Shown in pieces: positions 2,837-63,875 of a DNA stretch of 64,000 bases. The position numbers and the translations under genes are program-made. Location: assembly GCA_027922465.2 (NCBI GenBank), contig BQMF02000145.1:124001-188000 (forward strand). The letters are read 5' to 3'. Position 1 is the first letter of the stretch, and each line of letters opens with the position of its first letter. This stretch comes from Turritopsis dohrnii (Eukaryota > Cnidaria > Hydrozoa > Anthoathecata > Oceaniidae). The notes beneath the pieces are model-generated. The model was given only the letters and a program-made list of their open reading frames with translations, was not told the DNA's origin and made no database searches.

Positions 2837-5800
2837 ATGATTCACTCCACCAACGACGATATCTCGACTAACTGTAAGTTTAAAGAATGAATATTTAATT
2901 ATGTATACTGTTGTGCGCAGTTATGTAATTTTTGCGCAGATATGTAATTTCTGCGTAGATATGTAATTATTTTGCGCAGTTATGTAATTTCTGCGCAGTT
3001 ATGTAATTATTTTGCGCAGATATGTAATTTTTGAGCTGCGCAGTTATGTAATCGAGTGCTGCGCAGATATGTAAAATGCGGACTTTTTTATGGTTAAATA
3101 TTCGTTTGATAAGAACTCAGTTTTGAAGGTTTTGATTTCAAATTTGAGGACCATCTTTCCAGAATTTGTGTCAAAAGGGGATTTTAGGCCCAATTTGGTC
3201 CAAATTTACAGAATGATCAGTTTCTTTTGAAAATTTACACGAAGGATAATTCGAAGATTCTGATTTCAGAGATTAGGGCAATTTTTCAAAAGTTTGGGTA
3301 AAAAGGGGATTTTAGGCCCAATTTGGTCCAAATTTACAGAATTTGCACCTTTTTTCTGTGTCCCATTTTGATAAAAACTGTTTACGGAGAAGTTGCAGAG
3401 ATGTGGGGGTTCCTCTAAAAGAAAAACTTAATTAAGGTGATTCGCACTGAGTGAGACAGATCTCTTATTTTTCTTTCATTTTTTCATTTTTTTCATTTAT
3501 GAATATGGATAGAGAACTCAAGTACCCTAAAAAAATCTGGAAAACCCTAACACTTTTATGAACCAACAAAACCAACAAAGAAAAACATAACATTCTAGAT
3601 CAAAATCGACGATTGATGTGCTCCTAATTATAGCTAAACAATTTAGCTTTTTTTGACGTGCTGTCGTGAAATACTCGAGCCACGGATCTTTGGGATCGTA
3701 TTCTCTTTCGAGAAGAAGAACTGTCAAATGAGTGAGCGGGAGGACAATTGAACAAAAGCTGATAAATTAATACTGTAGACAACTTTATCTTACATCACCG
3801 AAGGGCATAAATACAAATTTCAATCTCTACAAAATCCTACGATCTTCGTATCCTACGCCCTTGCTCAGACGATATGAAAATTACACTTCAAATTGACAGG
3901 TCGGAGAAATAGGTTCATTTCTTATAAAGAAATTTTTTATAAAAACATAAACAAACTCATCTTCTGCGCATTCCCAACTTACTTTATGATATGCTAGGTC
4001 CGGATAGTGATAATGTAAAAAATTTTAAAGCTTTGTTTCTTATAAATAAAGTTCTTATAAAACATGAATACGTTTATTTTCCGCCAAATTACCTTTATGA
4101 AAGTAATCAAAATTCTTAAAAAGAGTTTTTTTTATCGTAAAATTCTTAATCTTTTCACAAAATATAGATTATCATGTCATTCATAAAAGATTTTATGATA
4201 TATCGCAAAAGCAGTGGTAGTTGAGTGAAAAAAATCTAGAAAAAATACTTGTATTAAAAAGTCCGCATTTTACATATCTGCGCAGCACTCGATTACATAA
4301 CTGCGCAGCTCAAAAATTACATATCTGCGCAAAATAATTACATAACTACGCAAAATAATTACATATCTGCGCAAAAATTACATAACTGCGCACAACATAT
4401 GCTTTGAAGGAATGAAACACGCACCAGGGTGTGGTTTGCTTCTTAGGTAGCGGCATTTGACTATTATTTTCACCTTCGTCGTTATCATTATCATCATCAG
4501 CATTCACATTTGCAATCTTTCTTTCAAAGTTTTCATATCATGTGGTAATTAGCGAATTACGAAAACATGTCAATCAACATTTTAATCTTGCTATAATATC
4601 AATGTATTCATCAAATTATATTTTTTACTAGCAATTGGCAAACACCATGGGAAAAGCTTTAAGTCATTCCCTCGATATTCCTTGTGGTACTTCTTGCTGG
4701 ACTTGCTTGAAACGAATGATTCTGGTCACCTCATCAGGTGGACTAATAAGGAGAATTTGGAATTTCATTTGGTCAACCCAAAAGAGTTGTCCGATCTGTG
4801 GGGTCAACTCAACGGAAAGGGCAACATGACCTATGCGAAATTATCACGAGCTCTAAGATATTACTACGGCAAAGGAGTCCTGGAGAAGGTAAGCAACATT
4901 TCAGAAGATGGAGGACGTCAGATTATTGTTTATTTTTAAGTTTAAGAGTCAGGTATTTAAAAGTTAAGTTGCTGCACGAATCTATCGAAAGATTTGTATT
5001 TACTGTAGACTATTTACTTACTATGCAAACTAATTGAATTTGTTATGCTAAACCTTGAATAAGTGGAGTTTAAGTACATTGAGTTTCATGAATTTAGACG
5101 GCTGGCAGTAAGTTTTTAGTACATTACGATATTTCGTGTTTAACAAGTAGTCATCAAGGGTGGTAATGTTTGTAGTTGTTTTAATAACTTTTGGGGGATA
5201 AATTAGACGATAACTATGCCTAACGAACATTTCTCCAATAACGCATACTTGTAAAACCACCGGAAGGTATATTTATATACAGACGATTATGCTGTCTCAG
5301 TCTGTTTGGTCATTCATTCTATCGAGACGAGACGGTGGGTTGACAATGAGTATTTGAGTATGTTCTGACAAAAGTGTTAAAATCAGGAGTAGGAATAGCA
5401 ATCGTCCAGTCTGATAAGCCCGGTGGCTTAATCTGTTCTTTTGCTAGAAAATCATGGGAGTTTGAAACATTTTCATGGTCTAAGGAAGGAATTCTGAAGG
5501 AGTTTTCATTTCAATTCGTTTTTATATGTTTTTTGGAAGTTTGTTTTTTGGGGATTGTTCATGGATTTTTTTACAACAATATCGTGTTCCAGGTGTTTAT
5601 TAATTCAGCCCTATTTTTTTGAACGTACAACTGGGCGAACATATTTTCATTATGAATTTCAGATTAATGAGTTTGGATCTATTTGTTTCATATATATTGT
5701 GAGTTAATTGTGAAATGCTGCCATGATGTGGCTCCAACTTAAAAACTATGCAAAATAGGATTTAGTTTTTACCAAATAGAGACTGTTCATATATGAGCTG

Positions 5801-6844
5801 TCATATGGATTTTTCAGCAAGGCTTTTCCGCAGGCTCAGGTTTATCCTCATGTGACACTGTTTATTGATAAAAAATCAGACTATTTTGTTGGGATCGAAG
5901 TAAGATCTGGGTTAGCCAGGCCAGCTCATTTTGATATTACAGGTTGTTGATTTTTAAGAGGATTTGCCAAGAGAGCCAAGTTTTCCGTTTTTCCTAGTGA
6001 ACACCTCCACACATGATAAGCCTCAGAATCTAAGAAATACATTTGATCACTGTTAACCAACAATTGATAACTGGAAGAAACCTTGTTATTGGTCAGTTTT
6101 AAGAATACTTTTCTCCTCATACCCCGGTTTTGTTTTGTTCTGAATTGATGTTTTCGAATTTTTCTTCAGGTACTGAACAAACATTTCCACTATCGCTTCA
6201 TTAAATCAGCAAGAACAAAGTTTGCGATGGAGAAGAAATTTGAAACAAAATGCCAGAAATCAAAAAAATCAGACTGTCCATTAGTTGAAGAAAGTGGAAA
6301 CGTGAAAAGTAGCGTTCCTGCTTCGGAACTATTCGCCGGTTGGATCAAGGAGATACAATGTAGCAGACCTACTGTTAACTGTGCTGATTCTTGTAGACAT
6401 CAGAATGACGAAGGTTTACGTATTCTTAACAACAACACCACAACGAGTTTTCATGCAAATCATCGCTTTGAGAACCAAGCTGCAAATAATGCGTTGCTCA
6501 CGCCAGTAGCAGTAAATAACGGAATGCTCCAGTCACTATATAGTGATGAAAACTTTTTTCAATTTGAAGATGGTATTGCGAATTCCCAGACAACATCTTT
6601 GCTTGAACAGACTGTTCCAATAATTGATGACCTTCCAGAAATCCCTAATCTAAATGAATTTGTCTCCATTCAAGAAATTAGTAAGTATATGATGGAAAAT
6701 CCCCAATTTTGTAAGGCCAAACACCCAGAAGCATCAGAAATATTTCAAAGTTATCTATCTGACGAAGAGAACTTAGAACATAGTAGCACCTATTTCACTG
6801 AAGAGCAACAGGATTTACTTGACTTACTAATGAAATTCTTTTAA
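2837..6844 (+). CDS. ETS-domain transcription factor, copy 1 (3 exons)
   Basis: Exons 2837-2873, 4632-4888 and 6170-6844 join in phase (GTAAGT/TAG, GTAAGC/CAG) into a 322-residue protein. Residues about 13-110 form an ETS DNA-binding domain: SLWYFLLDLLE, a conserved Trp, DLWGQ, then the recognition-helix signature KLSRALRYYYGKG with the two arginines that contact GGA in this family. The domain continues across intron 2 as FHYRFIKS. ETS proteins are nuclear transcription factors. The domain sits almost at the N-terminus. The C-terminal 200 residues match no domain I know, but an acidic stretch (TVPIIDDLPEIPNLNEF) is kept in the paralogue and may be an activation segment (inference). I cannot assign a subfamily such as ELK, ELF or SPI. 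Intron 1 holds a 1.5-kb foldback element. Confidence 0.85.
2909..4397. mobile_element. Foldback element with tandem-repeat termini
   Basis: The left terminus (2909-3089) and right terminus (about 4256-4397) are inverted copies of each other. Both are built from a 16-17-base unit, GCGCAGTTATGTAATT or GCGCAGATATGTAATT, in tandem, ending in TGCGGACTTTTT. Outer ends are TGTTGTGCGC/GCGCACAACA. The interior has a direct repeat (GGGGATTTTAGGCCCAATTT at about 3178 and 3305) and no transposase. The element is absent from intron 1 of the paralogue, which is only about 320 bases. No exact target duplication was established. Confidence 0.75.
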
Positions 6845-23429: not shown

Positions 23430-24720
23430 TGAAAATATAAATCATAACCTGGGTAAAATTTTTTTACCCAATTTAAAAGGATGTGTCAAATTTGCCTTTC
23501 CCGTGGGCAAACCCTGTGACAAAAATTTTAATTTGGGAATTGGCAACAGAAAATGCACCCATGTTGTAGAGCTCAATCAAAAAACTGTATGGGATGACCA
23601 ACCGTTAGAGAGATATCGCCAATCAATCATCACTTGTCCCAAAAAACAATTGTGCACACATTTTTCGTTGTCTTATTACCTGTATACCAGACCCCAATAA
23701 ACCTCAGTTATTTCTTCAGTTTCTAGAATTTGTGTTTGGCCAGAGGCGGACTCAAACTAGGAACCATTTTGCCACCACGGCTTATTATACAAAATATCTA
23801 AGCATTTGGTTGTTTATATCTAATGTATTGTTTCAAAGCACAGTGAATGACGGTCCTGGGAAAACAAAAACAACAATAATAACAAAACATTATCCCCATT
23901 GGTTTTCAAGATGTTTCCCCAAGAATATCATGTTCGATCGGAGGTGCAATTTCTCTCACAGCTCACATCTACCATTTTGCCTGACAGACAAACAGAGAAT
24001 CGGCTATTAATATACAGAATAGCCGCCAAGGCGGCGTCGCTCGCCGCCCATGTCCACCTGCTCTGTATCACTGTATCAATAAGCGTCAAATTTCCTTATA
24101 AACGGCTCATACAACTTGTGTTGAACCAGAAGCAGATTCGAAGTCACAACCTCTGGCAAAACCAATCTTTTATCAGTGTAAAAATACACTCAAAACGTAG
24201 AGAGAGAAAACTTCAACTTTTTATTAGCTTTTGTTTTACTATTTTACTATTAAGACAAAAGCAAAAAAAAATATTTTGTATCATGATTCTCTTTTTTTAC
24301 CTATCGGTTTTTAAACATTTTGATTGCTCGAAAAAAAGTTCACCCGTCTCCGACAGTCAGGCAAGGATACGTTAGGATACACTGGTAAACCGCACATGCT
24401 GCCATGTTCTGCCACTGCTGCTTTATGTCCAAAACGTTTAATCAGTTAGTTTCTTTGTATTTAGTTGATGTATTGTTTTCAAAACCAAGTCAACATGGAA
24501 TATAAAACTAACAATGATAATAAAAACAAAACGTTATTCCTAATTAGTTCATCAGCCAAAAACAGTCACGTTCGATTGGGGGTTGCAATGTATTTGCTTC
24601 GAACTCACGTCGCACACACAAAAAAAATAATTTCGCTCACAACTCAATCTACCATTTTGCGTGACTTACAGGCAAACAGAGAGACGGAGAATCGGCTATA
24701 TAGATAGCCATCGGTAATGT
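23430..24720. repeat. Interspersed repeat family 'GCCGCCAAGGCGGCG', copy A
   Basis: Shared landmarks in order: GTTGTAGAGCTC, GTTAGAGAGATATC, ATCCCCATTGGTT, CTACCATTTTGC, a short GACA/CAAA microsatellite, GAGAATCGGCTATTAATATA, GCCGCCAAGGCGGCGTCGCT, TGTATCACTGTATCAATAA, CAACTTGTGTTGAACCAGAA. The same order recurs at 55955-57532, 62402-63230 and 63060-63875. It is a mobile repeat of unknown class without an intact frame. The intact TGTATCACTGTATCAATAA at about 24064 matters because the RAG1-like unit is inserted in this exact sequence elsewhere. Confidence 0.7.
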
Positions 24721-30317: not shown

Positions 30318-32350
30318 ATGTTTCCCTCCACCAATGACGACATCTCAACAACTAGCTGTAAGTTTATGAAATGACAAATCAGTTAATTATTTCTTGAAGG
30401 AATGAAAACTCTACAAGATTTGGTGCGGGTAGCGTTTCAGTCAGCTGTCTAGCTATAGGTTTCGTCGCTGTTGTCGTTTATTTGCTAAGAAGACCACACA
30501 AGTCATATGATGTACGAAAGTGCCGCTTACTTGATGTTGTAGCGGATTGCATTTTCAAGTTTCAATTTAACACGTTTTCATGTCATTTGGTAATTAGCGA
30601 ACAATAATAATTAAAACAAGTCCATCAAACTTTTAATACCCTGTACTAGTATTATATCCTTGGAACTATATTTTTTACTAGCAATTGGCAAACACCACAA
30701 GAAAAGCTTTAAGTCATTCCCTCGATATTCCTTGTGGTACTTCTTGCTGGACTTGCTTGAAACGAATGATTCTAGTCACCTCATCATGTGGACTAACAAG
30801 GAGAACTTGGAATTTCGTTTGGTCAACCCAAAAGAGTTGTCCGATCTGTGGGGTCAACTCAACGGAAAGGGCAACATGACCTATGCGAAATTATCACGAG
30901 CTCTAAGATATTACTACGGCAAAGGAGTCCTGGAGAAGGTAAGCAACATTTCAGAAGATGGAGGACGTCAGATTATTGTTTATTTTTAAGTTTGAGAGGT
31001 GGGCATTTAAAAGTTAAGTTGTTGCACGAATCTATCGAAAAATTTGTATTTACTGTAGACTATTTACTTACTATGCAAACTAATTGAATATGTTAAGATA
31101 TGCTAAACCTTGAAAAAGTGGAGTTTAAGTACATTGAGTTTCATAAATTTAGACGGCTGGCAGTAATTCGTTAGTATATTTGCAATATTTTGTGTTTTAA
31201 AAGTAGTCAATAAGGATAAGAAAATGTTTTTAAACTGAATATTAATGACGTTTGCGCTGTTTAAAAGGAGAAACGACATGTCAGGGAGATATTTTTTCAC
31301 GAAATTCTTTCATTATGGCTAAGCACGTAATAATCCATAGATTAGAAGCGAATGTTTGCAGTGATAATTTATGAAAAGATCTACTTAATCTTTTTTCAGT
31401 TAAGTCGCTTTTAGTTCTTAAGTGTTCTTTCATTCTATCACAAACACGATGTTTGGTCGACAATGAGCGTTTGTGAATATATTGGTGAGAATGTCAAAAT
31501 TTGGACCGGGAGTAACAATGGGACTGATTCACAAACTGGGTTTGTTTCATGCACATCAGAATTTTCAATTTTGTAATCATAGCCATTAGTCGACTACTCC
31601 AACCCTTTTACAGTCTGCAAAAATCTCCTTTGTTTTGTTCTGAATTGATGTTTTCAAATTCTTCTTTAGATACTGAACAAGCCTTTCCACTATCGCTTCA
31701 TTAAATCAGCAAGAACAAAGTTCGCGATGGAAAAGAAATTTGAAACAAAATATCAGAAACAAGAAAAGCCAGACTGTCCATTATTTGATGAAAGAAAAAA
31801 CGGTAATAGTAGCGCTTCTACATCGGAACAATTGACGGGTTTGATTAACGAGATCCAATGTAGTGAGCCTACCGTTAGCTGTGCTAGATCTTGTAGACAT
31901 CAGAATGACGAAGGTTTACATATTCGTTATAACAACACCACAAGGAGTTTTCATGCAAATCATGTCTTTCAGAGCCAAGCTACGAATATTGGATTGCTCA
32001 CACCAGTAGCGGTAAATGATGGAAGGCATTTGATGGAGTCACCATATAGTGATAAAAATCTTTTTCAATTTCAAGATGGAATTGCGGATTCGCAGGCAAC
32101 ATCTTTGCTTGAACAGACTGTTCCTACAATTGATGACCTTCCAGAAATTCCTAACTTAAATGAATTTGCCTCTATTTATGAAATTAGTACATATATGGTG
32201 GAAAATTCCCTGCTTTGTAAGGCAAAACAGCCAGAAGCATCAGAAATATGTCAAAGTTACTTCTTCAATGAAGAGAACTTAGAACATAGTAGCACCTGTT
32301 CCACTGAAGAGCAACAGGATTTACAAAGCTTACTAATGAAATTTTTTTAA
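30318..32350 (+). CDS. ETS-domain transcription factor, copy 2 (3 exons)
   Basis: Exons 30318-30357, 30682-30938 and 31670-32350 join in phase into 325 residues. The ETS domain (residues about 14-111) is almost identical to copy 1: only a few residues differ before the splice after VLEK, which continues as ILNKPFHYRFIKS. The C-terminal part is more diverged but colinear, keeping SCRHQNDEGL, TSLLEQTVPTIDDLPEIPNL and CSTEEQQDL. Uneven divergence indicates purifying selection on the DNA-binding domain and looser constraint on the tail. Introns are shorter than in copy 1 because they lack the foldback insertion. The intact frame and conserved promoter argue that this copy is also a working gene. 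Confidence 0.85.
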
Positions 32351-40949: not shown

Positions 40950-42677
40950 CAGGGTGGCCCAAAAAAAGCTTACCCTGGTTTAAATAGCTAATTCAGCCAA
41001 AAATATTTACATTGAAATTTTGATTCTTATACCATTCGAAAGAAAATTTTATAAGCTTTCTAAAAATATATGATACGTATCTTCAGCATTATTACTTTGC
41101 GAGAAAGTCAAATTTTTATCTTTCACTCAAAGTAATTAAGATTTAAAGATCAATTAAAATACTTTCAAAATAGAAATTAATGATACGTTAAATTACAAAG
41201 TAATAAACACAAATTACAAAGTAATGAAAAGGACAATGAAATATGACGTGTCCGTCAAATGTTGTGACTTAAAGAATCAAACAAATGTTTTTGCATGTTA
41301 AAGAGGTTGAAAATGCAATTGACAGTGGAGCAACGAGTCTTTGTGGTAACAAAATATCATGAAACAAAAAGCTACATTGCTGTTAGGGAAGCATTCCGCC
41401 AACGGTTTCCCGGGCGTGCCGCCCCATGCAAGAAAACGATACACAAGAACATTCAAAAATATCAGCAAAATGGTACAAATCTTAACATGAATAAGGGACA
41501 TTCAGGTCGACGTAGATCTTCTCGCACGCCTCAAAATGTGAATATTGTAAGAAATGCTCTCGTTGCCAATCCTAGAGTAAGTACACGGAGGAATGGAATT
41601 CCAGTAAGCCGTTCAACTTTTCAGAGGGTTGTTCAAAATGATTTAAGGTGGCATCCCTTCAAAATGCATGTCCGGCATGAGCTAAAACAAGGAGATTCTG
41701 TGAGAAGAGTCAGATTTTGCCAATGGTTTGAAAATCAATGCCATAATCCAAGGTTTTTGTACAACCTAGTGATTGGTGACGAAGCATCATTTGCTTTAAA
41801 TGGACAGGTAAATAACCACAACGTCCGAATGTATGCAGAAAAAGGTAACCCCCCTGTATTTCAATTTGATGTGTCAAGTGATCGTCGTAAGCTGACAGTA
41901 TGGGCAGGAATTTGTGGGAACGGAACACTTGTTGGGCCTTACTTTTTTGATGGGAACGTTAATGGAAGGTCCTACTTACAGATGGTTGATACGTTTTCGT
42001 TGCCAAATTTGCAGAGATTCTATCCTGTTCTTTTCAATTCTGTTTGGTGGGCCCAAGATGGAGCTCCAGCTCACCGTACATGAAATGTTACCAATCGACT
42101 GCGTCAAATTTTTGGCAGAAATGTAATTGCTATTGGGCAGAATACAGAATGGCTTGCACGCTCCCCTGACTTGACCCCGCTTGATTGTTTCCTCTGGGGC
42201 TATCTGAAAGGCAAAGTTTACCAGACACCTGCAGCAACCCTTGCTGATTTAAGAGGAAGAATTCAAGATGCATGTACACAACTCACACAAACTCCATTTA
42301 TCCAAAACTCAATAAGAGAAATGAGAAGGAGATCTGTGTTGTGTATTCAAAGAAATGGACACCACGTAGAAGGACATTACCCTTAGTTTTACTTTCTTAT
42401 TAGTTTTCTTTGTTGTGTTTATTACTTTGTAATTTAACGTATCATTAATTTTTATTTTGAAAGTGCTTTAATTGATCTTTAAATCTTAATTACTTTGAGT
42501 GAAAGATAAAAATTTGACTTTCTCGCAAAGTAATAATGCTGAAGATACGTATCATATATTTTTAGAAAGCTTATAAAATTTTCTTTCGAATGGTATAAGA
42601 ATCAAAATTTCAATGTAAATATTTTTGGCTGAATTAGCTATTTAAACCAGGGTAGGCTTTTTCTTTGGGCCACCCTG
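40950..42677 (+). mobile_element. Tc1/mariner-like transposon (DD41D) with long inverted repeats
   Basis: Ends CAGGGTGGCCC and GGGCCACCCTG, flanked by TA (40948-40949, 42678-42679). The inverted repeats run about 260 bases (40950-41210 and 42415-42677), far longer than the 20-30 bases of classical mariners. A single transposase gene occupies the middle. The insertion lies at the end of the PAT-like RNase H, whose frame resumes directly after it. Confidence 0.92.
41295..42386 (+). pseudogene. Mariner-like transposase, one premature TGA
   Basis: ATG at 41295; 364 codons in one frame with a single TGA at 42081-42083, probably a decayed CGA. The N-terminus has a helix-turn-helix region (LTVEQRVFVV, AVREAFRQRFPGRAAPCKKT) of the DUF4817 type. 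Catalytic residues visible: VIGDEA (first D), WAQDGAPAH (second D), SPDLTPLDCFLWG (third D). There are 41 residues between the second and third D, the spacing of the DD41D group. Apart from the one stop the frame is clean, so inactivation is recent. The stop removes the third D. Confidence 0.9.
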
Positions 42678-45648: not shown

Positions 45649-46488
45649 TTGTGTAGAAACTTGTCTTTCTACATAAGCGCACTGGAGGACCTTACCGAGT
45701 GTGCGGTTAAACCCATTGTCCGTGATGATTGTCGTAGGAAATCCAAACAGAGAAAACGACTTGGTATGATTGCAAATGATTTGCTGAGAGCCGCCGCCTT
45801 TCTTCATGACAAAAGTAACTGGGTAGCGCGTGTTATAGTCTATTAGTACGAGAATGTGTTCTCCGGGTGGTAGAAATCGGCCCCGACAGTGTTCCACGGT
45901 TCTGCTGGCGATACGGTCGCTTGTAGTGGCTCGCGTTTAGCCGATGGTGTGGTTAATTGACGGGGTTGGACACCTTGCGAATAATCTTTCAACGTCGGAG
46001 GCGATTCCTGGCCACCAAACTTTCTCTCGGAGTAAGGCTTTTGTTCGTGTCATTCCTTGGTGCTGCCGGTGTGTGATGTCAAGTAAATCTTTTCGTAATT
46101 TCTGCGGTATGACAATGACATTGCCTTTTAGTAAGACACCTTGTGAGCCAATCGAGAGCTCGCGCTTGACATTTGAGTATGGGGTTTGACGTTTCATGTC
46201 CCATTTGCCGGTTGAGATGCTTGTGATGATGGACGACAAGACCGAATCTTTTGCTGTTTCTGCAGCGATCTTCATCAGGTCGACATTGACGGGCACGGCA
46301 TGAGACGTTACCATTGTGATGTAGTTTTCAGTATCTGATGTGTCTACAAAAGTTTCAGTTGGAGAACGCGATAAGATGTCTGCTGCATTTTTGCAACCTG
46401 GTGCGTACGTGATGTCATACTCATAAACCTGGAGTTTTAGGAACCAGCGCTGAATCCTTGGAGGAGGTTGTGAATTCGAGGACAACAT
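45649..46488 (-). pseudogene. Gypsy integrase, upstream part (zinc finger and core), plus RNase H end
   Basis: From 46488 leftward: VYEYDITYAPGCKNAADILS (end of RNase H), HRQHQGMTRTKALLREKVWW (integrase zinc-binding His/His region), then after a frameshift near 45930, EHILVLIDYNTRYPVTFVMK and TTIITDNG (second catalytic Asp). A deletion then jumps from DNG to NRTLGKVLQCAYVERQ, removing the segment that carries the catalytic Glu. It stops at the PAT insertion and continues at 35967. Confidence 0.8.
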
Positions 46489-46499
46489 CGAGGTTAGCG

Positions 46500-48542
46500 G
46501 CTTGTGGGCGGTTATGATTGTGACATGCGAATGGAAGATAAAATAGTGAAAATGTTATGAAGCCCAAAGAACGGCAAGGGCTTCGCGTTCGGTCTGACTA
46601 TATCGACTTTCGGCATCTTTCAGTGATCTGGACCCAAAGCTGACTGTTTTGTACACTCCATCTGCTTGTTCTTGTGTCAGACCCACTGGACTCGCGTCGA
46701 CGATGATGGTGGTTTTGGCATTTGGATTATAGCATGCCATTACTTCCGGACTCTGTAGTGCTTCTTTTAGCCGGTCAAACGCTGTTTGTTGTTCCAAATT
46801 CCAGATGAACGGTTCTTTCTTTCTAGTCAAACGACGCAGAGGTTTGAGATTGTTGCGTAGTTCTTGATAAATCTGCTGCAGAATGTGACTAGTCCCAAGA
46901 ACGAATGAATTTCGGATGCGTTGCGTGCCTGGGCTATGTGCTGCACTGCTTCGGTTTTCATGGACTCTGGTGCGATTCCCATCGGTGTTAATTGATGTCC
47001 GGCAAATACGAGGCTACTGACTCCAAATGTGCATTTGTTACGATTGAGCTTAAGACCATGATCTTGCAGGCGCTGCAATACGGTTTTGAGGTTTCGATTG
47101 TGATGCTCCTTTGTCGAACCCCAAGCGAGGATCTTTATCAGCTCAATCTTTATCTGGAAGATTTCGAAGGCACTACTGATACCGAAGAACAACCGCTTGA
47201 ACCGAAAAACACCATCATATGTTGCGAATGTTGTGATATCCCTGCTGTCAGGGTGTAACATGAGTTGGTGGTAACCTTCATGAAGATCTATTTTGGAGAC
47301 AATAGTGGCATTGTGTAGTTCTGGAAGGATTTCATCAAATTTGGGAATTACGTGTCTTTCACGAATGACGGCCTCGTTCGCCTTCCTCATGTCGATACAA
47401 AATTGCATTTGATCGCTTGATCGACGTGGAACAATGACAAAAGGGTTTAACGAGGTGGTGGGACCATCATAACGTTCAATAATGTCCAATTTTTCCAATT
47501 CTTCAGAAACTTTTTGTCGAGTGTGCCATGGTAACCTTCGTATGGGTTGCTGTTTGGGCGGTACTGTTTTATCAAGGTGTAATTTAATTTCAGTGTCCTT
47601 GACGAACCCATGTCCATCAAAAACGGTTTTCCTTTCTTCCAGTATCCCTTGTAGGCTTGAGGTGGACTGAATCGTGTTGATGATGGGTGGTGAAACTGGT
47701 GGCCCGACACGAAATAGCTCTAATGTTTCTGCAGTGGTTTTGCTGAGTATTGTCTTTCCCTTTCCTTTGACGACAAAGATTGTGGTGTTCACGAATTTGT
47801 CTTTGGCCTGGACGACAGCGGTGAATTTTCCTGCAACAGGTAACGGCTTTGTGGCTTGATATGAGTAAATGTTTGTGGTTGTTGGCGAAAGATTTGGTTG
47901 TGGATTCATTTTGGTCCAAACAGAATTGTTGATGATGTTGATGGAGGAGCCTGAGTCGATCAGTGCATCCATTTTAGTTTTGTTGATCAAGATCGGAAAC
48001 GTGGGACCTTCGTTGATAATGAACACGTAAAAGTTATTTATTTCTTCCTCACTACTTTTTGATCCGCTTTCAGGATGTGTGGTTTCGTCTTGTTTGATGC
48101 TGTTTACAGTTTTTTGTTTATTTTGAAAACACATTTTCCCAAAGTGTCCTGTGTTGCCGCACACACTACAGTGGACACCTTGAGTGCGACGACACTCATG
48201 TCCTTTGTGTCCTGCTGCACCACAACGGCTACATGTGTTATTGCCTTGTGTCGAAACTGCTGCTTTCGACCGTGGATAGTGACATCGGTCGTGTGCATTT
48301 TGTGTTCGATTTTGTTGTTTCGGTTGAGGGTCATGTGCTTGATGGTCTGGTGTTCGATGTCCGTCCTGAAATCGAAATTTTCCCCGGCCTTTGTAGTTCG
48401 ATGGCGAGAAGATTTTGTTGACTTGAGCGGTGAGTGGTGTTTGTGACGATGTTGCTTTCATTTGTTTGGCCTGATGCGTAGCAGCTTCGCGTGATTTGCC
48501 TAATTCCAGAACATTGTCAAGGGTGAGATCTCTCTTTTCCAA
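46500..48542 (-). pseudogene. Gypsy protease-RT-RNase H with RT deletion
   Basis: Two CCHC knuckles (CSRCGAAGHKGHEC, CSVCGNTGHFGKMC), protease MDALIDSGSSINII, RT blocks QFCIDMRKANEAV and VSKIDLHEGYHQLMLHP (catalytic Asp). The expected YxDD box is absent: FEIFQIKIELIKI runs straight into LAWGSTKEHHNRNL. So a small in-frame deletion removed the core of the active site. RNase H follows in an overlapping frame at 46555-46830 (TTIIVDASPVG, YSQTEREALAVLW). Confidence 0.85.
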
Positions 48543-55954: not shown

Positions 55955-57532
55955 CTAGCCGCCAAGGTGGCGTCGCTCGCCGCCCATGTTCAGCCTGCAT
56001 TGTATCACCACCTGCTCCAAATTATTGCACTTAAAACCAGCGATAAGACTTCCTTTGCTGCTGGCTTTATCGCCTAATAAAGTTCGTTTGCACGTGAAGA
56101 GAAATACGTTCCTGGTGTTTCAAGTCTTGCATGTTCTTAACTGAGCCGTTCATTGTCGCGGTCGCATTTAAAATGTCAGCAGACTTTCTTGCTTTACACA
56201 ATGCATTCCGAACGTGAACCGAACGTGGTTCTAATTTACGATTTTAAACCAATCAAATATCAGTTTAAGAATACACTCAAAACGCAGAGATAAAAGACTT
56301 TTCAACTTATTATTAGCTTTTGTTTTACGCGCTCTAACACGGGTGCTGTCAGAAGTAGGTAAAAAAATGGTTTCTCTTAAAAAGAGTACATGGGAGGAGA
56401 AAAAAATGCATGTGCTAAATGAATAAAGTGAATAAAAAACGTTCGATCAGATTAAAATAGATTAAAAGAAATCGATTAAAAGAAATTAAGACAACTATTA
56501 AGACAAAAGCAAAAAAAATATTTTGTTTCATGATACTCTTTTTTACCTATCGGTTTTGAAACATTTTGATTGCTCGAAAAAAAGTTCACCCGTCTCAGAC
56601 AGTCAGGCAAGCATTAGGATACACTGGCAAACCGAACATGCTGTCACGTTCTGCCACTGCTGCTTTTTGTCCAAAATGTTTAATCAGTTAGTTTCTTTGT
56701 ATTTAGTTGATGTATTTTTTTCAAAGCCAAAAATATAAAGAATATAAAACTAACAATAATAATAAAAGCAAAACGTTATTTTGATTGATTCACGTGCCAA
56801 AAAAGTCACGTTCGATTAAGGTTGCAATGTATTTATTTCGAACTCACGTCGCACACAAAAAAAGAAATAATTTCGCTCACAACTCAATCTACCATTTTGC
56901 GTGACTTACAGACAAACAAAGAATCGGCTATTAATATATAGACTAGCCGCCAAGGCGGCGTCGCTCGCCGCCCATGTTCAGCCTGGGTTGACTTCACGAA
57001 AAATAAAATTAAGGAATTGACAACCAAAAGTGTCCCCATGTTGTAGAGCTCGAAAAACTGATCAAAAAAATGTATGGGATCGTTTCACTACGATCAACCG
57101 TTACAGAGATATCATCGTTCAAAGATTTCGATGACGTCACAGACCCGTCCCCCGAAAAAATTAGACCCAAATTTTTCGTCACCCCATCGCCTGTATCGCG
57201 GACCCCAAAAAACGTCAGTTATCCCTATTGGTTATCGAGATAATTTTCCCTAAACGTCGCGGTCTCAATGCAATGGTTTCACACTGACGTTGCGCACAAG
57301 AAGAGAAATAATTTATGTGTGATCTTACATTGCTGACTCTCTTTCGCAGTTCACATCTACCATTTTGCGTGACTTACAAACAAACAAACAAACGCACAAA
57401 CAAACAAAAAAAAAACAAAAAAAAACAAAAAAAACAAACAAACAAACAAACAGAGAATCGGCTATTAATATATACACTAGCCCCCAAGGCGGCGCTTCTC
57501 GCCGCCCATGTCCACCTGGTCTGTATCACTGT
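55955..57532. repeat. Repeat family 'GCCGCCAAGGCGGCG', copies B and left half of C
   Basis: Copies of the landmarks listed for 23430-24720 run from 55955 (GCCGCCAAGGTGGCGTCGCT) and again from 56940. At 57379-57455 there is a CAAA-type microsatellite, then GAGAATCGGCTATTAATATA, CCCAAGGCGGCG and CTGTATCACTGT, where the family sequence stops abruptly at 57532. It resumes with CTGTATCAATAAACG at 62402. Confidence 0.75.
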
Positions 57533-57582
57533 CACGTTGGTTTAGCCGTGGAACGTTATTATGCGCATGCGCGAGATTTTTC
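57533..57582 (+). repeat. Left terminal inverted repeat of RAG1-like unit
   Basis: CACGTTGG at 57533, 5 bases (TTTAG), then CCGTGGAA at 57546 and TTATTATGCGCATGC to 57570, followed by a looser match (AGATTTTTC). From the first base to the inner block is 13 bases. Confidence 0.75.
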
Positions 57583-58066
57583 TTTCTATCTTTTCCGTTA
57601 TTAATAACACGTGTTGAGGCAGTTTTCTGGGGTCGAGATCTTGATTTTATACTACCTTAAATCGTATCATAGTAACTTGTTAGAAACCGCTGACTGCTTG
57701 GTACCGAAGGCTCTACTATAGTTAATCATGCTGAAAAATACACGAGGTCTCTTTTTATCGTTCTTCCGTTTGAAATGGCTGTTTGTTAGACGACCTTCCA
57801 AACATGGTAAATATAGCACCTACAAAATCGATCAAATTTTAATGCTTTTGAAGTTTTCCTGTTTACGTGATTTATATTTTCGTACAGTTTAATGCTTGGT
57901 GAATATTGTTGTGTTGGTTTATTGTGGTTAACACATTTGATAAGTGTTGTACAGCTACTGAAAAGTTGGGGATTTTTCATCATGGTATGCGCCATGTTTG
58001 CTTGTGTATGAGGTAGGTAAGTGATATAATATTAATAAATAAACAAGTTTTCTGCTGTATTAAACT
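57583..58066. other. Non-coding segment inside the RAG1-like unit, 3' of the gene
   Basis: About 480 bases between the left inverted repeat and the gene's stop. No frame with motifs and no second gene are seen on either strand. Confidence 0.5.
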
Positions 58067-58072
58067 TTTATT
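58067..58072 (-). terminator. AATAAA overlapping the stop codon of the RAG1-like gene
   Basis: The last codons read GAT GAA TAA AAG, so AATAAA at 58072-58067 contains the TAA stop (58070-58068). It is the only canonical polyadenylation signal seen directly at the gene end, which implies a very short 3'UTR. Confidence 0.5.
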
Positions 58073-61000
58073 CATCTTTCCTTTTTCGTTTTAAAGGCCC
58101 TATTTTCATGGTTTTTGGGTTTACTCTCAGGTAGTGCTCCTTCATCATTGCCTGAAGTCTGGCAGTACCATATGGCATCCTTCCATATATTGACTTCAGT
58201 GTGTTAAACTCAGGATGAAGTGCTTCTCCACCCTGCTCTCCGTAAAATCCTAAGCCATGTCTCCATTTACGAAGAAAAGGCATGACATGATCTTCTAATA
58301 AGTGAAGTTTTGGCGTGATTCTTTCTCTTGGCCAGGTTCCACGTAGGTACTGCATGAGATCTCGTATTGCTTTTTCTAAAAATGATAATATACAAATGTA
58401 ATTCTGCAAAAGTCCAAGCAGTTCAAGAACAAGAAGGATAATAGTCACGCCTAGTTCATCCAGTTTCTCCTCATCCAAGCAATCAGCACTGTTCATTAGA
58501 TTGTGGCACACTGAATATTTCAAGAACAGGAATTTGAAGTCCTGACAGGTTTTTATTGCCTCCTGATGAATGTCTGTGTTTCCGAAACCCAAATTGGTGA
58601 TGGTAATGGGCAATGAGTTGCATAGTTTGATGATATTTTGGGGCTAAAGGTTGGATAATGATGTTAATAATTTCATGTATCTATTAATTATAATCTATTT
58701 TAGTATAAACAGGCATACCTTCAACATTTTGTGCACGTGATTTCCCTCGAAGCTTTTACCATGATACGCCTGGCGGTGCACATTTACAGATTTTAAAACA
58801 TCATCCAAACCCTTAACACAGGGTCCGTCTTCTTTGTTTACATAGCTATTTTTCAATAGCTTATCTAATTCTTTTTCCTTGAAGAAATATAAAAAATTTT
58901 GTTAAGCACTTATGATAAATTGTATAGGGTTTGTTTGATGAAAATTGTTCCTTTTTTAATGCTCCAATAAACTATCGATATTCATTAAACTATGTACCTT
59001 TTCTGTTAATTTTTTAGAAATGTGTTCAATTCTTGGATTGTAGATTTCATAAATGTTGCTTTCTTGTTCAGGATCATTTGAAATATTCCTTGCTATAGCA
59101 TCATGAACTAAAGTGGAAAGTGAGTTCAGTTAATTATCCATATAATTGTGTCAAATATTACATAAGATCTTTGAGGGAAACCCTACTTAGTGATATTTTG
59201 TTTTTGCAATCGTTTATTGTGTAGGTCAATGCTGAAACTTTTTCTTGAATATCTGCTAAGTTTCTAATAGTCATGTTTGTTTCTTCCGCAGATAATCTTC
59301 TACCAGCCATTTTTACATCTACAATGTGACACTGGTATTCAAATAAATTGAAAAACTTCAGGAACGTTCCCAAAGAGATATGAAGTCCTGGTGGTGCTAC
59401 CTGCAAGAACATACACACAGATTGATGTAGGTACATTTTTTAAAATTAAAATAGATCAACGATCCAAATTGGTTAATATCACCTTACCTGATCAATGGGT
59501 ATGTTGAAATATGGTTTGTTGATGACATTATTATGATGTTTTGCTTCTTTTAGATTTGCACCATCTGCTTCAAATCCCAACAAATCATCAGTTATTGTGC
59601 TCAATGTTCTAGATGTTGATGGTCCTCGGACAGCCAAAGGGGTACTAAGTTGGCTGTTCATTATATTGCAATACAAACAGCAATGTCTACCTGAATAGAT
59701 AGATTATCAATGTGGTAAGGTGACTGGATTGGTTATATATACATGCTTTATTACTGAATATCATATATTATACCATTAGCTCCTGTCAGGCCATACATGA
59801 CACATAAAAATTCGTAATCACCAAATAAAAAGACACGTATGTTTTTCTCTCTAGAAAAGAAAATACTGTTGTGCAGTTGCTTGATTTAATGAAGAAATTG
59901 TTGATTTTTAGTAAGTATGCATACCCCCATTTCAATTTTTGTAAATGATCTATTTGGTCTTGGAATCTATGCAATCCCATAGTAAGGTTTGTTCTCCAAT
60001 CCTTAGCTTCAAAGAGTGAAAATACTACTGAGTGAGCTTTACTGTTTGGCTTCTCAACATTACATATTTGGTATGCCATCTTGAAGGACCCGCCTCCATG
60101 ATCACCACCAACTTTAATACGTAATTCTTTATCAAAAACTGTAGGAGTAACCAGTAAGTTGTGCCTATATTTTAACAAAATAAGTCAAATTACCGTTGTT
60201 AGTATATTTACCCAAAATGCAATTGAATTTTGAATTACCTTTCTAATTCTGTTGCCCGTTCCAAAATGTGTTGGGGAAGATCTTCGAGATATGCCCATGG
60301 GGCAGAGCGTACTTCATATCTTCCCTTTGCATCTTTACATTCAAATGTAAAGGGTGTCTCTTCCACTTTCAGACTATCCCCAGCTAAAGACTTAGCCATT
60401 TGCCGTTGCTTCCCGATTGATGCTGGTTTGACATCAAATGACTTCAGCCACCTAAAGGAAGCACATATCAAGTTCAATGTAGAGCAGCAAGACCTGACCT
60501 AAATGTTAAAGTATACGCAGCATCCTAACCTGGCCATGATAGCAAGTTTCCGCCAGGGAATGCCCATGTCAGCTTTCATGCCAACCATAGCTTCAGATGT
60601 AATGGCAATGGGTGATATTTTGGCTTCTCTTAAAAGCTTCGTTCTTTCATTTTCGTTGAATGTTTTTAAAAGAACAGCAGTTTGTTTAATTTGAGAGTCA
60701 CCATCATCTCCCACTAAAGTTTGCAAACTGCTCTTTAATGTTTTGCACCTGTTTTTTAAAGTCTTTTTTGAAGCTTGGGAACTTTGCTTGTAGGCTCTTG
60801 GGGTTGATGTGATGTAAAATGGCTATAATATGATAGAATGCAATGTTTTATTCAGTAGATATACATGAGGGAATACAGAACATAATCAAACATCAAGGGA
60901 GGAGTGCAATCTTTTATTATCAGTGTTTTTCTTTCTTAAATAACTTGCTTGTCTATGTTCAACTATATGTTCTGTATTTGCCTCTGATATAAACATTTGC

Positions 61001-61953
61001 TGTTAATTAAAATATAAGAAATGTCTAAATCTTCTTACCCTAGGCCCCCCTGACTTGAATGAAACAACAGTCGATTGTTCTTTTACCATTTTATGTTTAA
61101 TGACGTGTAGTGCTGCGTCTTCAATAGGTCGGGGGATGTCTGTATTTTCATCAATTTTAAAGACATCACTTATCGTGTAGTTAGGAGTAACAGCAGCAGT
61201 AGGAGGAGGAGGACCTTGACAACACGACTCGTGTTGTGATAATTTGTCCTGCTTAAACGATAAGCCACAACCACGAGAACAATTGATGTTGATACATTTA
61301 ATTAATTCAAGGACCGTCTCGTTTGGGGTGATCTTAGCAATATTTTTTTCGCATGTAGGGCATCGGACGTCATCCTTTCTTCGCCCCTCAATTTTTGGAC
61401 ATAAGCATTTCAAGCAGAATGTATGTTCGCAACTGTTAATTTTGAAGGGATTAGAAAATATATCGTGACAAAGTTTGCAAATGCATAAATGTAAATGTGG
61501 GGTTTTGTCAGTGTCTATGTTCGAGATATTTAATTTGACTGTGTTCGGAGTATTAAGCTTTTGCAACTCAATGATCGAATTTCTTGTCCAGCATGGAACA
61601 TTCCAAACGATATGCTGGCTTTCCTTTTTATTGCGCCTTCCCCCACTACGTTTGGTCAGAATGTGTTCACATACTTTGCACGATTGTGAGATGTGCTGTG
61701 TCCATGTAAAAGGTAAGGAAGGGTTAAAAGAGGTGCCACGTTTCTCGATATTTACTATCTTCGAATAGCAATTGTGACAAATTTTGTCAGGGTGGATATC
61801 TGAAACGTCTTCCACACAACTAATGTAAAAGGCCTTTTCAATTCGTGGCTTCAATTTCTCCACTACGAATGTTTTTTTGCTTAAGTAGCCACCACAAACA
61901 CGGCAAAGCTTTGTCAAGTATGTCGTGTGCATTTCAAGGGATGCTTGCGCCAT
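58068..61953 (-). CDS. RAG1L: RAG1-like transposase/recombinase with N-terminal RING (10 exons, intact)
   Basis: Exons 61039-61953, 60530-60822, 60239-60451, 59925-60164, 59774-59850, 59488-59690, 59187-59400, 58998-59107, 58719-58877, 58068-58643 join with GT/AG and matching phase into 1,000 codons including the stop (999 residues; vertebrate RAG1 about 1,040). N-terminal zinc pairs LCRVCGG (17, 20) and IHPDKICHNC (59, 62) match RAG1's region; RING C3HC4 at 159-201 (CKLCHD, CEHTFCLKC, CPTC); zinc finger 220-245. Core: GGDHGGG (Asp495), FGDYEFL (Asp565), CLYC (584, 587), HLLEDH (922, 927), GEQGGE (Glu944/948) are candidates for the DDE triad and ZnH2 site. Asp565 to the first Cys is 19 residues, as in RAG1. 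In this family the core cuts DNA at terminal signals and the RING has ubiquitin-ligase activity. ATG at 61953 follows a probable 90-base 5'UTR intron (61957-62046). Confidence 0.92.
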
Positions 61954-61956
61954 TTC

Positions 61957-62046
61957 CTAAAAATGGGCAAACTTTGACTGTAAATATTTTCTGTTTCAGA
62001 TGTGTTACCAGCATGAAAATTTGGGAATCAATACTTTAATACTTAC
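61957..62046 (-). other. Probable 5'UTR intron of the RAG1-like gene
   Basis: AGAGTAAGT (donor at 62046) and CCATTTTTAG (acceptor at 61957-61958) bound 90 bases just before GAAATGGCG, the start codon context. There is no in-frame upstream coding that would need it. Confidence 0.5.
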
Positions 62047-62340
62047 TCTTTTTGACGATATAAACTGTTTAAGCTGGAAAACTTTTGTGATACGTGAATT
62101 TTAGTGTTTTTGTTGTGGTACTTCGTCGTTTTTACCAGAGAACTTTGTTCATCAAAATCTTAGTGAAAAAAGCTTTTTGAAATCGAATAAATTGTATTAG
62201 AATGTTGCTTTGTTCCATGAAATTCGATTGTCAAAAGCTGATTATGAACTTAGGCCTTATTTTGTATTTTTGGAGGTTGTTTTTGCCAGTATTGTGTACT
62301 GGTAGCTAAGTACCAGCACTGTAAAATCAAAATATTCGAA

Positions 62341-62401
62341 TTTGAAAATCCAAGCATGCGCATAATAAAATTCCACGGAATGCATGTTTTGAACGCACGT
62401 G
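62341..62401 (-). repeat. Right terminal inverted repeat of RAG1-like unit
   Basis: Read on the minus strand from 62401: CACGTGCGTTC, then AAAACATGCATT, then CCGTGGAA at 62378 and TTATTATGCGCATGC to 62354, then GGATTTTC. From the first base to the inner block is 23 bases, 10 more than at the left end. Confidence 0.75.
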
Positions 62402-63875
62402 CTGTATCAATAAACGTCAAATTTCCTTATAAACGGCTCATACAACTTGTGTTCAACCAGAAGCAGATTCAAAGTCACAACCTCTGGTAAAACCAATCTT
62501 TTATCAGTGTAACAATACACTCAAAATGTAGAGGGAGAAAACTTCAACTTTTTATTAGCTTTTGTTTTAAAAAAGTTACGCGCTCTAACATGGGTGCTAT
62601 CAAACGTAAGGGGGAAATGGTTTCTCTTCTTAAAAAGATCACACGGGAGGAGAGAAAAAAAGGCACGTGCTAAATGAATAAAGTGAATAAAAAAAAAAAA
62701 GGTTCGATCTGAAGCGCATAACATTTAAAAAAGAAATTAAATTATTAAAAGAAAAGCAAAAAAATATTTTGTTTGATGATACTCTTTTTTCATCTATCGG
62801 TTTTTAAACATTTTGATTGCTCGAAAAAAAAGTTTACCCGTCTCAGACAGTCAGGCAAGGATACGTTAGGATACATTGGCAAACATGCTACCACGTTCTG
62901 GCACTGCTGCTTTTTGTCCAAACAGTTTAATCAGTTAGTTTCTTTGTATTTAGTTGATGTATTGTTTTCAAAGCCAACGTAGTCAACATAGTCCTTGGAA
63001 TATAAAACTAACAATAATAATAAAAACAAAACGTTATTCCTATTAGTTCATCAGCCAAAAAAAGTCACGTTCGATTGGGGTTGCAATGTATTTGCTTTGA
63101 ACTCCCGTCGCACACAAAAAAAAGAAATAATTTCCTTCACAACCCAATCTACCATTTTGCGTGATTTGCAAACAAAGAAACAGATAAACAGACAGACAGA
63201 AAATCGGCTATTAATATATAGACTAGCCGCCACATCAGCGTCGCTCGCTGCCCATTTTTAGCCTGGGTTGTGTCATCTTCTTCAGATTTCACGAAAAATA
63301 GAATTAAGGAATTGGCAATGATAGGTGTGCCCATGTTGTAGAGCTCGAAAAACTGATCAAAAGAATGTATAGGATCGTTTTTCTACGACCAACCGTTACA
63401 GAGATATTGTCGATCAAATATTTTGATTACGTCACAGACCCGTCTCCCCAAAAAATTAGACCCAAATTTTTCGTCACCCCATCGCCTGTATCGCGGACTC
63501 CAAAATACGTCAGTTATCCCCATTGGTTACCGAGATAATTTTCCCTAAACTTCACATTCTATCTGGGTCTCAATGGAATGGCTTCACGCTGACGTCGCAC
63601 AAAAGATAAAAAATAACATCTCTCACAGCTCACCTACCATTTTGCGTGACTTACAGATAAACCGAGAATCCGCTATTAATATATAAACTAGCCGCCAAGG
63701 CGGCGTCGCTCGCCGCCCATGTCCACCTGCTCTGTATCACTGTATCAATAAACGTCAAATTTCCTTATAAACGGCTGGTACAACTTGTGTTCAATCAGAA
63801 GCAAATTCGAAGTCACAACCTCTGGTAAAGCCAATCTTTTATCAGTATAACAATACACTCAAAACGTATAGAGAG
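62402..63875. repeat. Repeat family 'GCCGCCAAGGCGGCG', right half of copy C and copy D
   Basis: 62402-63230 continues the copy interrupted at 57532 (CTGTATCAATAAACG, then CAACTTGTGTTCAACCAGAA, ending at TTAATATATAGACTAGCCGC). A further copy follows (GTTGTAGAGCTC at about 63334, GCCGCCAAGGCGGCGTCGCT at 63701, TGTATCACTGTATCAATAA at about 63737). The second is cut at 63875 by another element. No gene is present. Confidence 0.75.

Follow-up and report, generated by a model that had tools for sequence, protein, structure and literature searches.

The window analysed here is a stretch of 64,000 nucleotides of Turritopsis dohrnii DNA, and at 57533-62401 it holds a mobile-element insertion of 4,869 bp with one gene, which encodes a transposase whose amino-terminal part resembles that of RAG1. 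We are close to certain that this is a complete Chapaev DNA transposon of the subgroup with Chapa and RING domains, inserted recently enough to have kept a perfect target duplication. The initial annotation of the window had seen in it a RAG1-like gene packaged as a transposon; the insertion itself is real, and the kind of element is already known. The insertion is delimited as follows.

57529..57532, left copy of the CTGT target duplication (from the sequence; present once in each of the sister repeats, at 24069 and 63738)
57533..62401, transposon of 4,869 bp, complete and very probably of Chapaev type (ungapped alignment of the joined flanks with two sister repeats; the full copies at G000:C366, 99.5%, and C420, 96.3%, have the same two tips)
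62402..62405, right copy of the CTGT target duplication (from the sequence and the joined-flank alignment)

The left flank ends in ATCACTGT, the element starts with CACGTTGG and ends with GCACGTG, and the right flank begins with CTGTATCAATAA; the target duplication, for which a length of 4 bp had been proposed, is exactly CTGT, with no one-base ambiguity on either side. The uninterrupted site, CACTGTATCAATAA, is found exactly at 24069 and 63738. Taken by itself, this short motif is not beyond chance (it has three places with two mismatches or fewer, a count equalled by 7 of 100 shuffles). The longer alignment bears out the proposal of a repeat that is split here and uninterrupted in its sisters: when the two flanks are joined with a single CTGT, 206 of their 247 bp can be aligned without gaps to the sister repeats at 23984-24189 (93.2%) and 63653-63858 (91.7%), the AAAC-rich first 41 bp of the joined flanks lying outside the alignment. 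The proposal also supposed that the sisters hold no part of the insert, and the region near 24 kb (23501-24700) indeed gave no match to its interior at E 1e-6. The insertion is thus confirmed, and the insert is a genuine transposition product.

Copies of the element in the genome

The first 168 bp and the last 200 bp of the element were searched against the 436-Mb assembly from which the window comes. The left end gave at least 17 matches, at least 11 of them starting at element base 1 or 2, and the right end at least 24, at least 16 of which extend to the final base (the window copy is included in all four counts). A full copy at C366, with 99.5% identity across 4,870 alignment columns, is surrounded by flanks unrelated to those of the window and has a duplication of its own, GCAG/GCAG; the check suggested by the initial annotation, for copies elsewhere that share the ends and duplicated a target of their own, was therefore successful. 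A second full-length copy, at C420, is 96.3% identical to the window element; a third copy, which was read in part (element positions 57-2475 and 3144-4869), faces it head to head. Near the junction in this region (L009, G000:C420:262000-270500, at 2419-2443) two tips are 19 bp apart and the 4-bp flanks of the two copies match crosswise, as though an exchange between the copies had turned round the short stretch in the middle. Elsewhere, a right end at 141843 of G000:C513 (L029) is flanked by the host repeat family of the window (aaccagaagcagattcgaag) and thus represents another insertion into this repeat.

In a different DUF1280 family, the member at C18 has CACGGCTGTTT and CACGGTTGTTT as its tips and is flanked by ACGT/ACGT as its duplication. 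Duplications were counted after exclusion of the C76 copy of the C18 family, the left tip of which has decayed, and of copies with a single end in hand or a truncated end (e.g. C357, C45, C118 and C288).

The transposase gene and its product

As had been proposed, the insert holds one gene only. It runs on the minus strand from 61953 to 58068 in 11 exons, and the spliced model is open for 974 amino acids (aa). The open frame claimed by the initial annotation is therefore intact in the spliced model, but it does not exist as a single uninterrupted frame.

61039..61953, minus strand, exon 1: RAG1-type zinc/importin-binding (Chapa) region, RING, C2H2-like finger (Pfam RAG1_imp_bd at E 2.3e-7; RING; homologue profile against RAG1)
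60530..60822, minus strand, exon 2: start of DUF1280; helical region, possible counterpart of the RAG1 nonamer-binding region (GT/AG splice sites in three of three copies)
60239..60451, minus strand, exon 3: DUF1280
59925..60164, minus strand, exon 4: end of DUF1280; D495, candidate first catalytic Asp
59774..59850, minus strand, exon 5: D565, candidate second catalytic Asp
59488..59690, minus strand, exon 6: C(2)C motif, C584/C587
59187..59400, minus strand, exon 7: LH motif, H654
58998..59107, minus strand, exon 8
58719..58877, minus strand, exon 9
58451..58643, minus strand, exon 10 (followed by a putative in-frame intron of 75 bp)
58068..58375, minus strand, exon 11: H(4)H motif, H897/H902; candidate catalytic Glu, E919 or E923; stop

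The last intron (58376-58450) was placed because seven of seven aligned homologues lack 25 residues there and because both other full copies have GT donors; the window copy has a GC donor at this point, and in-frame read-through would add 25 residues. The remaining nine introns have GT..AG borders in all three copies. An open frame of 963 residues is kept at C420, while the C366 copy is frameshifted by a single-base gap. Over 963 codons, the window and C420 copies differ with a nonsynonymous rate (dN) of 0.011 and a synonymous rate (dS) of 0.058, and this excess of synonymous change suggests that the protein was under selection during the divergence of the copies.

Three domains are recognised along the protein: a RAG1_imp_bd match at residues 38-113, a RING finger at 159-201 and DUF1280 at 324-550. 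The DUF1280 match is well above its cut-off (E 1.3e-16, 61.3 bits against 25), and RAG1_imp_bd also exceeds its own in the full protein; zf-RING_UBOX does so in exon 1 alone and falls slightly below in the full protein. Among the named homologues, those of Hydra vulgaris rank first, and most of those that come next belong to echinoderms and lancelets. A profile built from 30 of 46 homologues matched mouse RAG1 over residues 102-461 at E 9.6e-35, and its match to the RAG1 core was insignificant. The Pfam RAG1 family PF12940 was not listed for the protein up to E 1, in a search whose filters drop most matches above about 0.1 and in a Pfam copy from which the PF26xxx families are possibly absent; among the precomputed domains, neither PF12940 nor PF26xxx (RAG1 protein families) is listed for any of the 46 homologues. 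A distant profile-profile match to the RAG1 core was obtained (E 3.2e-4, probability 39%, reached by none of 100 column shuffles), which at the sequence level points to kinship with the RAG1 core rather than membership, and the predicted fold of a homologue closely matches that core. The match of exon 2 to the RAG1 nonamer-binding region is weak, a Foldseek search with a model of exon 2 found nothing at E 0.001, and our search of the open-access literature brought up no mention of such a region in Chapaev. Among the 31 aligned proteins, D565, C584, C587 and H897 are conserved in all; D495 is found in 30 (one has S), as are H654 and H902 (one gap each), and the two candidate catalytic glutamates, E919 and E923, are each found in 29 (two gaps each).

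DUF1280 and RAG1 likeness across the genome

A search of the genome with the DUF1280 profile gave 150 scored matches (315 candidates), a figure that is not a count of genes, as one gene can match more than once; there were no matches in 14 control genomes, which are not stated to include animals. The 14 best matches have nearly equal scores and lie in open frames of 256-275 aa, two that were compared (C18 and C76) being 99% identical, while some other matches fall within uninterrupted frames of 751-1077 aa. Several Chapaev families therefore coexist in the genome. The C76 copy of one of these other families is interrupted by about 530 bp (L048 4281-4808), the ends of which form an inverted repeat (ACTTTAAACGT / ACGTTTAAAGT); the interrupting stretch is perhaps a small non-autonomous element.

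With a mammalian RAG1 as query, 44 scored matches were obtained (200 candidates), all of them within query residues 146-390, and at least 28 of the 44 are within 3 kb of one of 87 of the 150 DUF1280 places. The RAG1 likeness found with this query is thus that of the N-terminal part, mostly beside a Chapaev transposase. This result would be compatible with the presence of diverged RAGL or Transib elements in the genome. The genome search with Pfam RAG1 was uninformative, no control genome having been matched.

Placement of the element and alternative explanations

Chapaev transposons were reportedly described by Kapitonov and Jurka in 2007, and the N-RAG-TP element of Aplysia by Panchin and Moroz in 2008. 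In published work, DUF1280 is the Chapaev transposase and forms one clade with RAG1 in a tree of RNase H-like proteins (PMC3985635); the hallmarks of the group are duplications of 3-4 bp, CAC...GTG termini and the motifs C(2)C, LH and H(4)H (PMC4079192); and in two subgroups a Chapa domain, resembling the RAG1 N-terminus, is followed by a RING finger, Chapaevs of lancelet and sea anemone being described as well (Kapitonov and Koonin 2015, PMC4411706). The window element has all of these features: a DUF1280 transposase with a putative DDE (Asp-Asp-Glu) site and the three motifs, termini CACGT...ACGTG, duplications of 4 bp (CTGT in the window, GCAG at C366), and a RAG1-like zinc region followed by a RING finger. 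The duplication length, which the initial annotation took for a departure from the 5 bp of RAG-related transposons, is therefore simply the Chapaev norm. No difference of kind was found from the known Chapaevs with Chapa and RING, and the particulars of the window family beside them are its 11 coding exons, as modelled, and the placing of its subterminal block, 13 bp from one tip and 23 bp from the other. Among related elements, Chapaev3 belongs to the same group and has the Chapa domain (PMC4411706), but its duplications are of 3 bp, TWA flanked by A and T (PMC4079192), instead of the 4 bp, CTGT and GCAG, of the window family; Aplysia N-RAG-TP is likewise a mobile element with a protein like the RAG1 N-terminus (PMC8355894). 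The element is a further member of an already known transposon group, and it was probably active recently.

The initial annotation amounted to a different placement, among RAGL/ProtoRAG or Transib elements, as a true RAG1-only transposon with an unusual 4-bp duplication. Part of this stands, in that the N-terminus is RAG1-like by sequence and the remainder has the RAG1-core fold in the model of a homologue, a fold that would be shared with RAGL/ProtoRAG; in addition, lancelet RAG1L has N-terminal zinc motifs and a RING dimerization domain (PMC7204232). Nevertheless, we hold membership in these groups to be very unlikely. The transposase part is DUF1280 and not the Pfam RAG1 family, and the termini are CAC/GTG; TransibSU, of the RAGL group, has 5-bp duplications, as does Transib, whose canonical transposase has no N-terminal Chapa or RING (PMC8355894, PMC4411706), but they are of 4 bp in the two clean cases of the window family. 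A complete RAGL transposon has two genes, RAG1L and RAG2L, in convergent orientation (PMC7204232), whereas the window element has one gene and no space for a RAG2-like neighbour: only 535 bp and 448 bp lie outside the transposase gene, with no open reading frame (ORF) of 80 aa or more listed there. Finally, none of the 44 genome matches to RAG1 falls in the catalytic core. Membership was rejected on the basis of DUF1280 and the 4-bp duplications.

Two further explanations were considered, and we give hardly any credence to either. The open spliced frame and a dN/dS well under 1 would suit a domesticated host gene lying by chance in a repeat-rich region, but not the intact tips, the target duplication, the sister sites that lack the insert and the presence of an almost identical copy in other surroundings; the empty site and the C366 copy led us to reject it. 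An assembly artefact or a segmental duplication could be suspected since some copies do share flanks, those at C252 and C54 being one duplicated locus. It was rejected because the flanks of the window and C366 copies are unrelated, with different 4-bp duplications, and because the joined flanks fit the sister repeats ungapped. As to the Chapaev placement itself, several points weigh against it or against the clean picture of insertion. It was made by Pfam family, duplication length, termini and motifs, the comparison being with published descriptions. At the full C420 copy the left and right flanks do not match each other. They match across the head-to-head pair only if an exchange between the copies is assumed: GCCA is both the left flank of one copy and the right flank of its partner, and another pair, ACGG, fits beside a remnant tip 19 bp off, a crosswise arrangement that would be expected after such an exchange. 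Older copies have no clean duplication: there is none at C173 (L015), none at C132, where the left tip has decayed, and the decayed C252/C54 flanks, AATA and AATG, agree in three of four bases. The 11-bp terminal repeat of the C18 family did not reach significance, its score being attained in 25 of 300 shuffles, and the tips of that family are based on the alignment ends and the ACGT match.

The ends of the element

The description of the ends given by the initial annotation, CACGT at both and a near-perfect 25-base inverted block near each, proved accurate.

57533..57537, plus strand, left tip CACGT (11 of the 17 left-end matches start at element base 1 or 2)
57546..57570, plus strand, left subterminal inverted block, 13 bp from the tip (23 of 25 bases complementary to 62354-62378)
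62354..62378, minus strand, right subterminal inverted block, 23 bp from the tip (23 of 25 bases complementary to 57546-57570)
62397..62401, minus strand, right tip ACGTG, CACGT from outside (16 of the 24 right-end matches reach the last base)

With the tips masked, the alignment score of the two blocks was reached by none of 300 shuffles. Among the ends listed, the spacing between tip and block is 13 bp in 10 of 11 left ends and 12 bp in the other (10-22 bp examined, left ends with a recognisable tip and block being listed), and 23 bp in 16 of 16 right ends (15-32 bp examined). The two blocks are thus offset by 10 bp, about one turn of DNA, which recalls the 12/23 rule. This may be a quirk, because the copies share descent, some duplicate one locus, and one other Chapaev family is without the offset: in the C18 family, no significant block common to both ends was found with the tips masked (95 of 300 shuffles were as good). 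The 13/23 spacing is so far confined to one family, and no mention of unequal end spacing in Chapaev was met in our open-access literature search. At 62660-62682, 268 bp downstream of the element, the sequence AAGGCACGTGCTAAATGAATAAA is 83% alike to the right end and its flank, probably by chance.

Possible mechanism and significance

By analogy with transposon families, a dimer of the transposase would bind both subterminal blocks, an RNase-H-like DDE active site would cut beside the terminal CAC/GTG, and the ends would be joined to target strands 4 bp apart, gap filling then leaving the 4-bp duplication. The RING finger might serve as a ubiquitin ligase, a role that it has in RAG1. One may go further and suppose that Chapaev transposases match RAG1 in their whole architecture, down to a nonamer-binding-like region that follows the RING, and act on ends whose shared binding block lies one turn of DNA deeper at one end than at the other (13/23), as a forerunner or parallel of the 12/23 rule. 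We regard this as a doubtful conjecture; if it were true, the full domain order of RAG1 would be older than the split between Chapaev and Transib/RAG. Quite apart from it, a RAG1-type N-terminus joined to what the homologue model predicts to be a RAG1-core fold across the whole transposase is relevant to the question of how the antibody recombinase came by its domains. Neither an assay nor a solved structure of a Chapaev transposase turned up in the literature listings or among the best 60 of 242 structure chains, although no direct search for one was made. As a clean and probably recently mobile Chapaev copy, with an empty site, an open gene model and a near-identical sister, the window element is a good start for the biochemistry of a RAG1 relative.

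Other features of the window

Some other places in the window drew attention. At 45937-48542, two minus-strand ORFs (183 and 571 aa) look by eye like pieces of a long terminal repeat retrotransposon polyprotein with zinc knuckles. The 262-aa ORF at 41295-42083, by eye a Tc1/mariner-like transposase, has 92% identity to protein P0167 from a short public contig. Finally, similar ORFs of 205 and 207 aa, at 6227-6844 and 31727-32350, lie about 25 kb apart and appear by eye to be duplicates.

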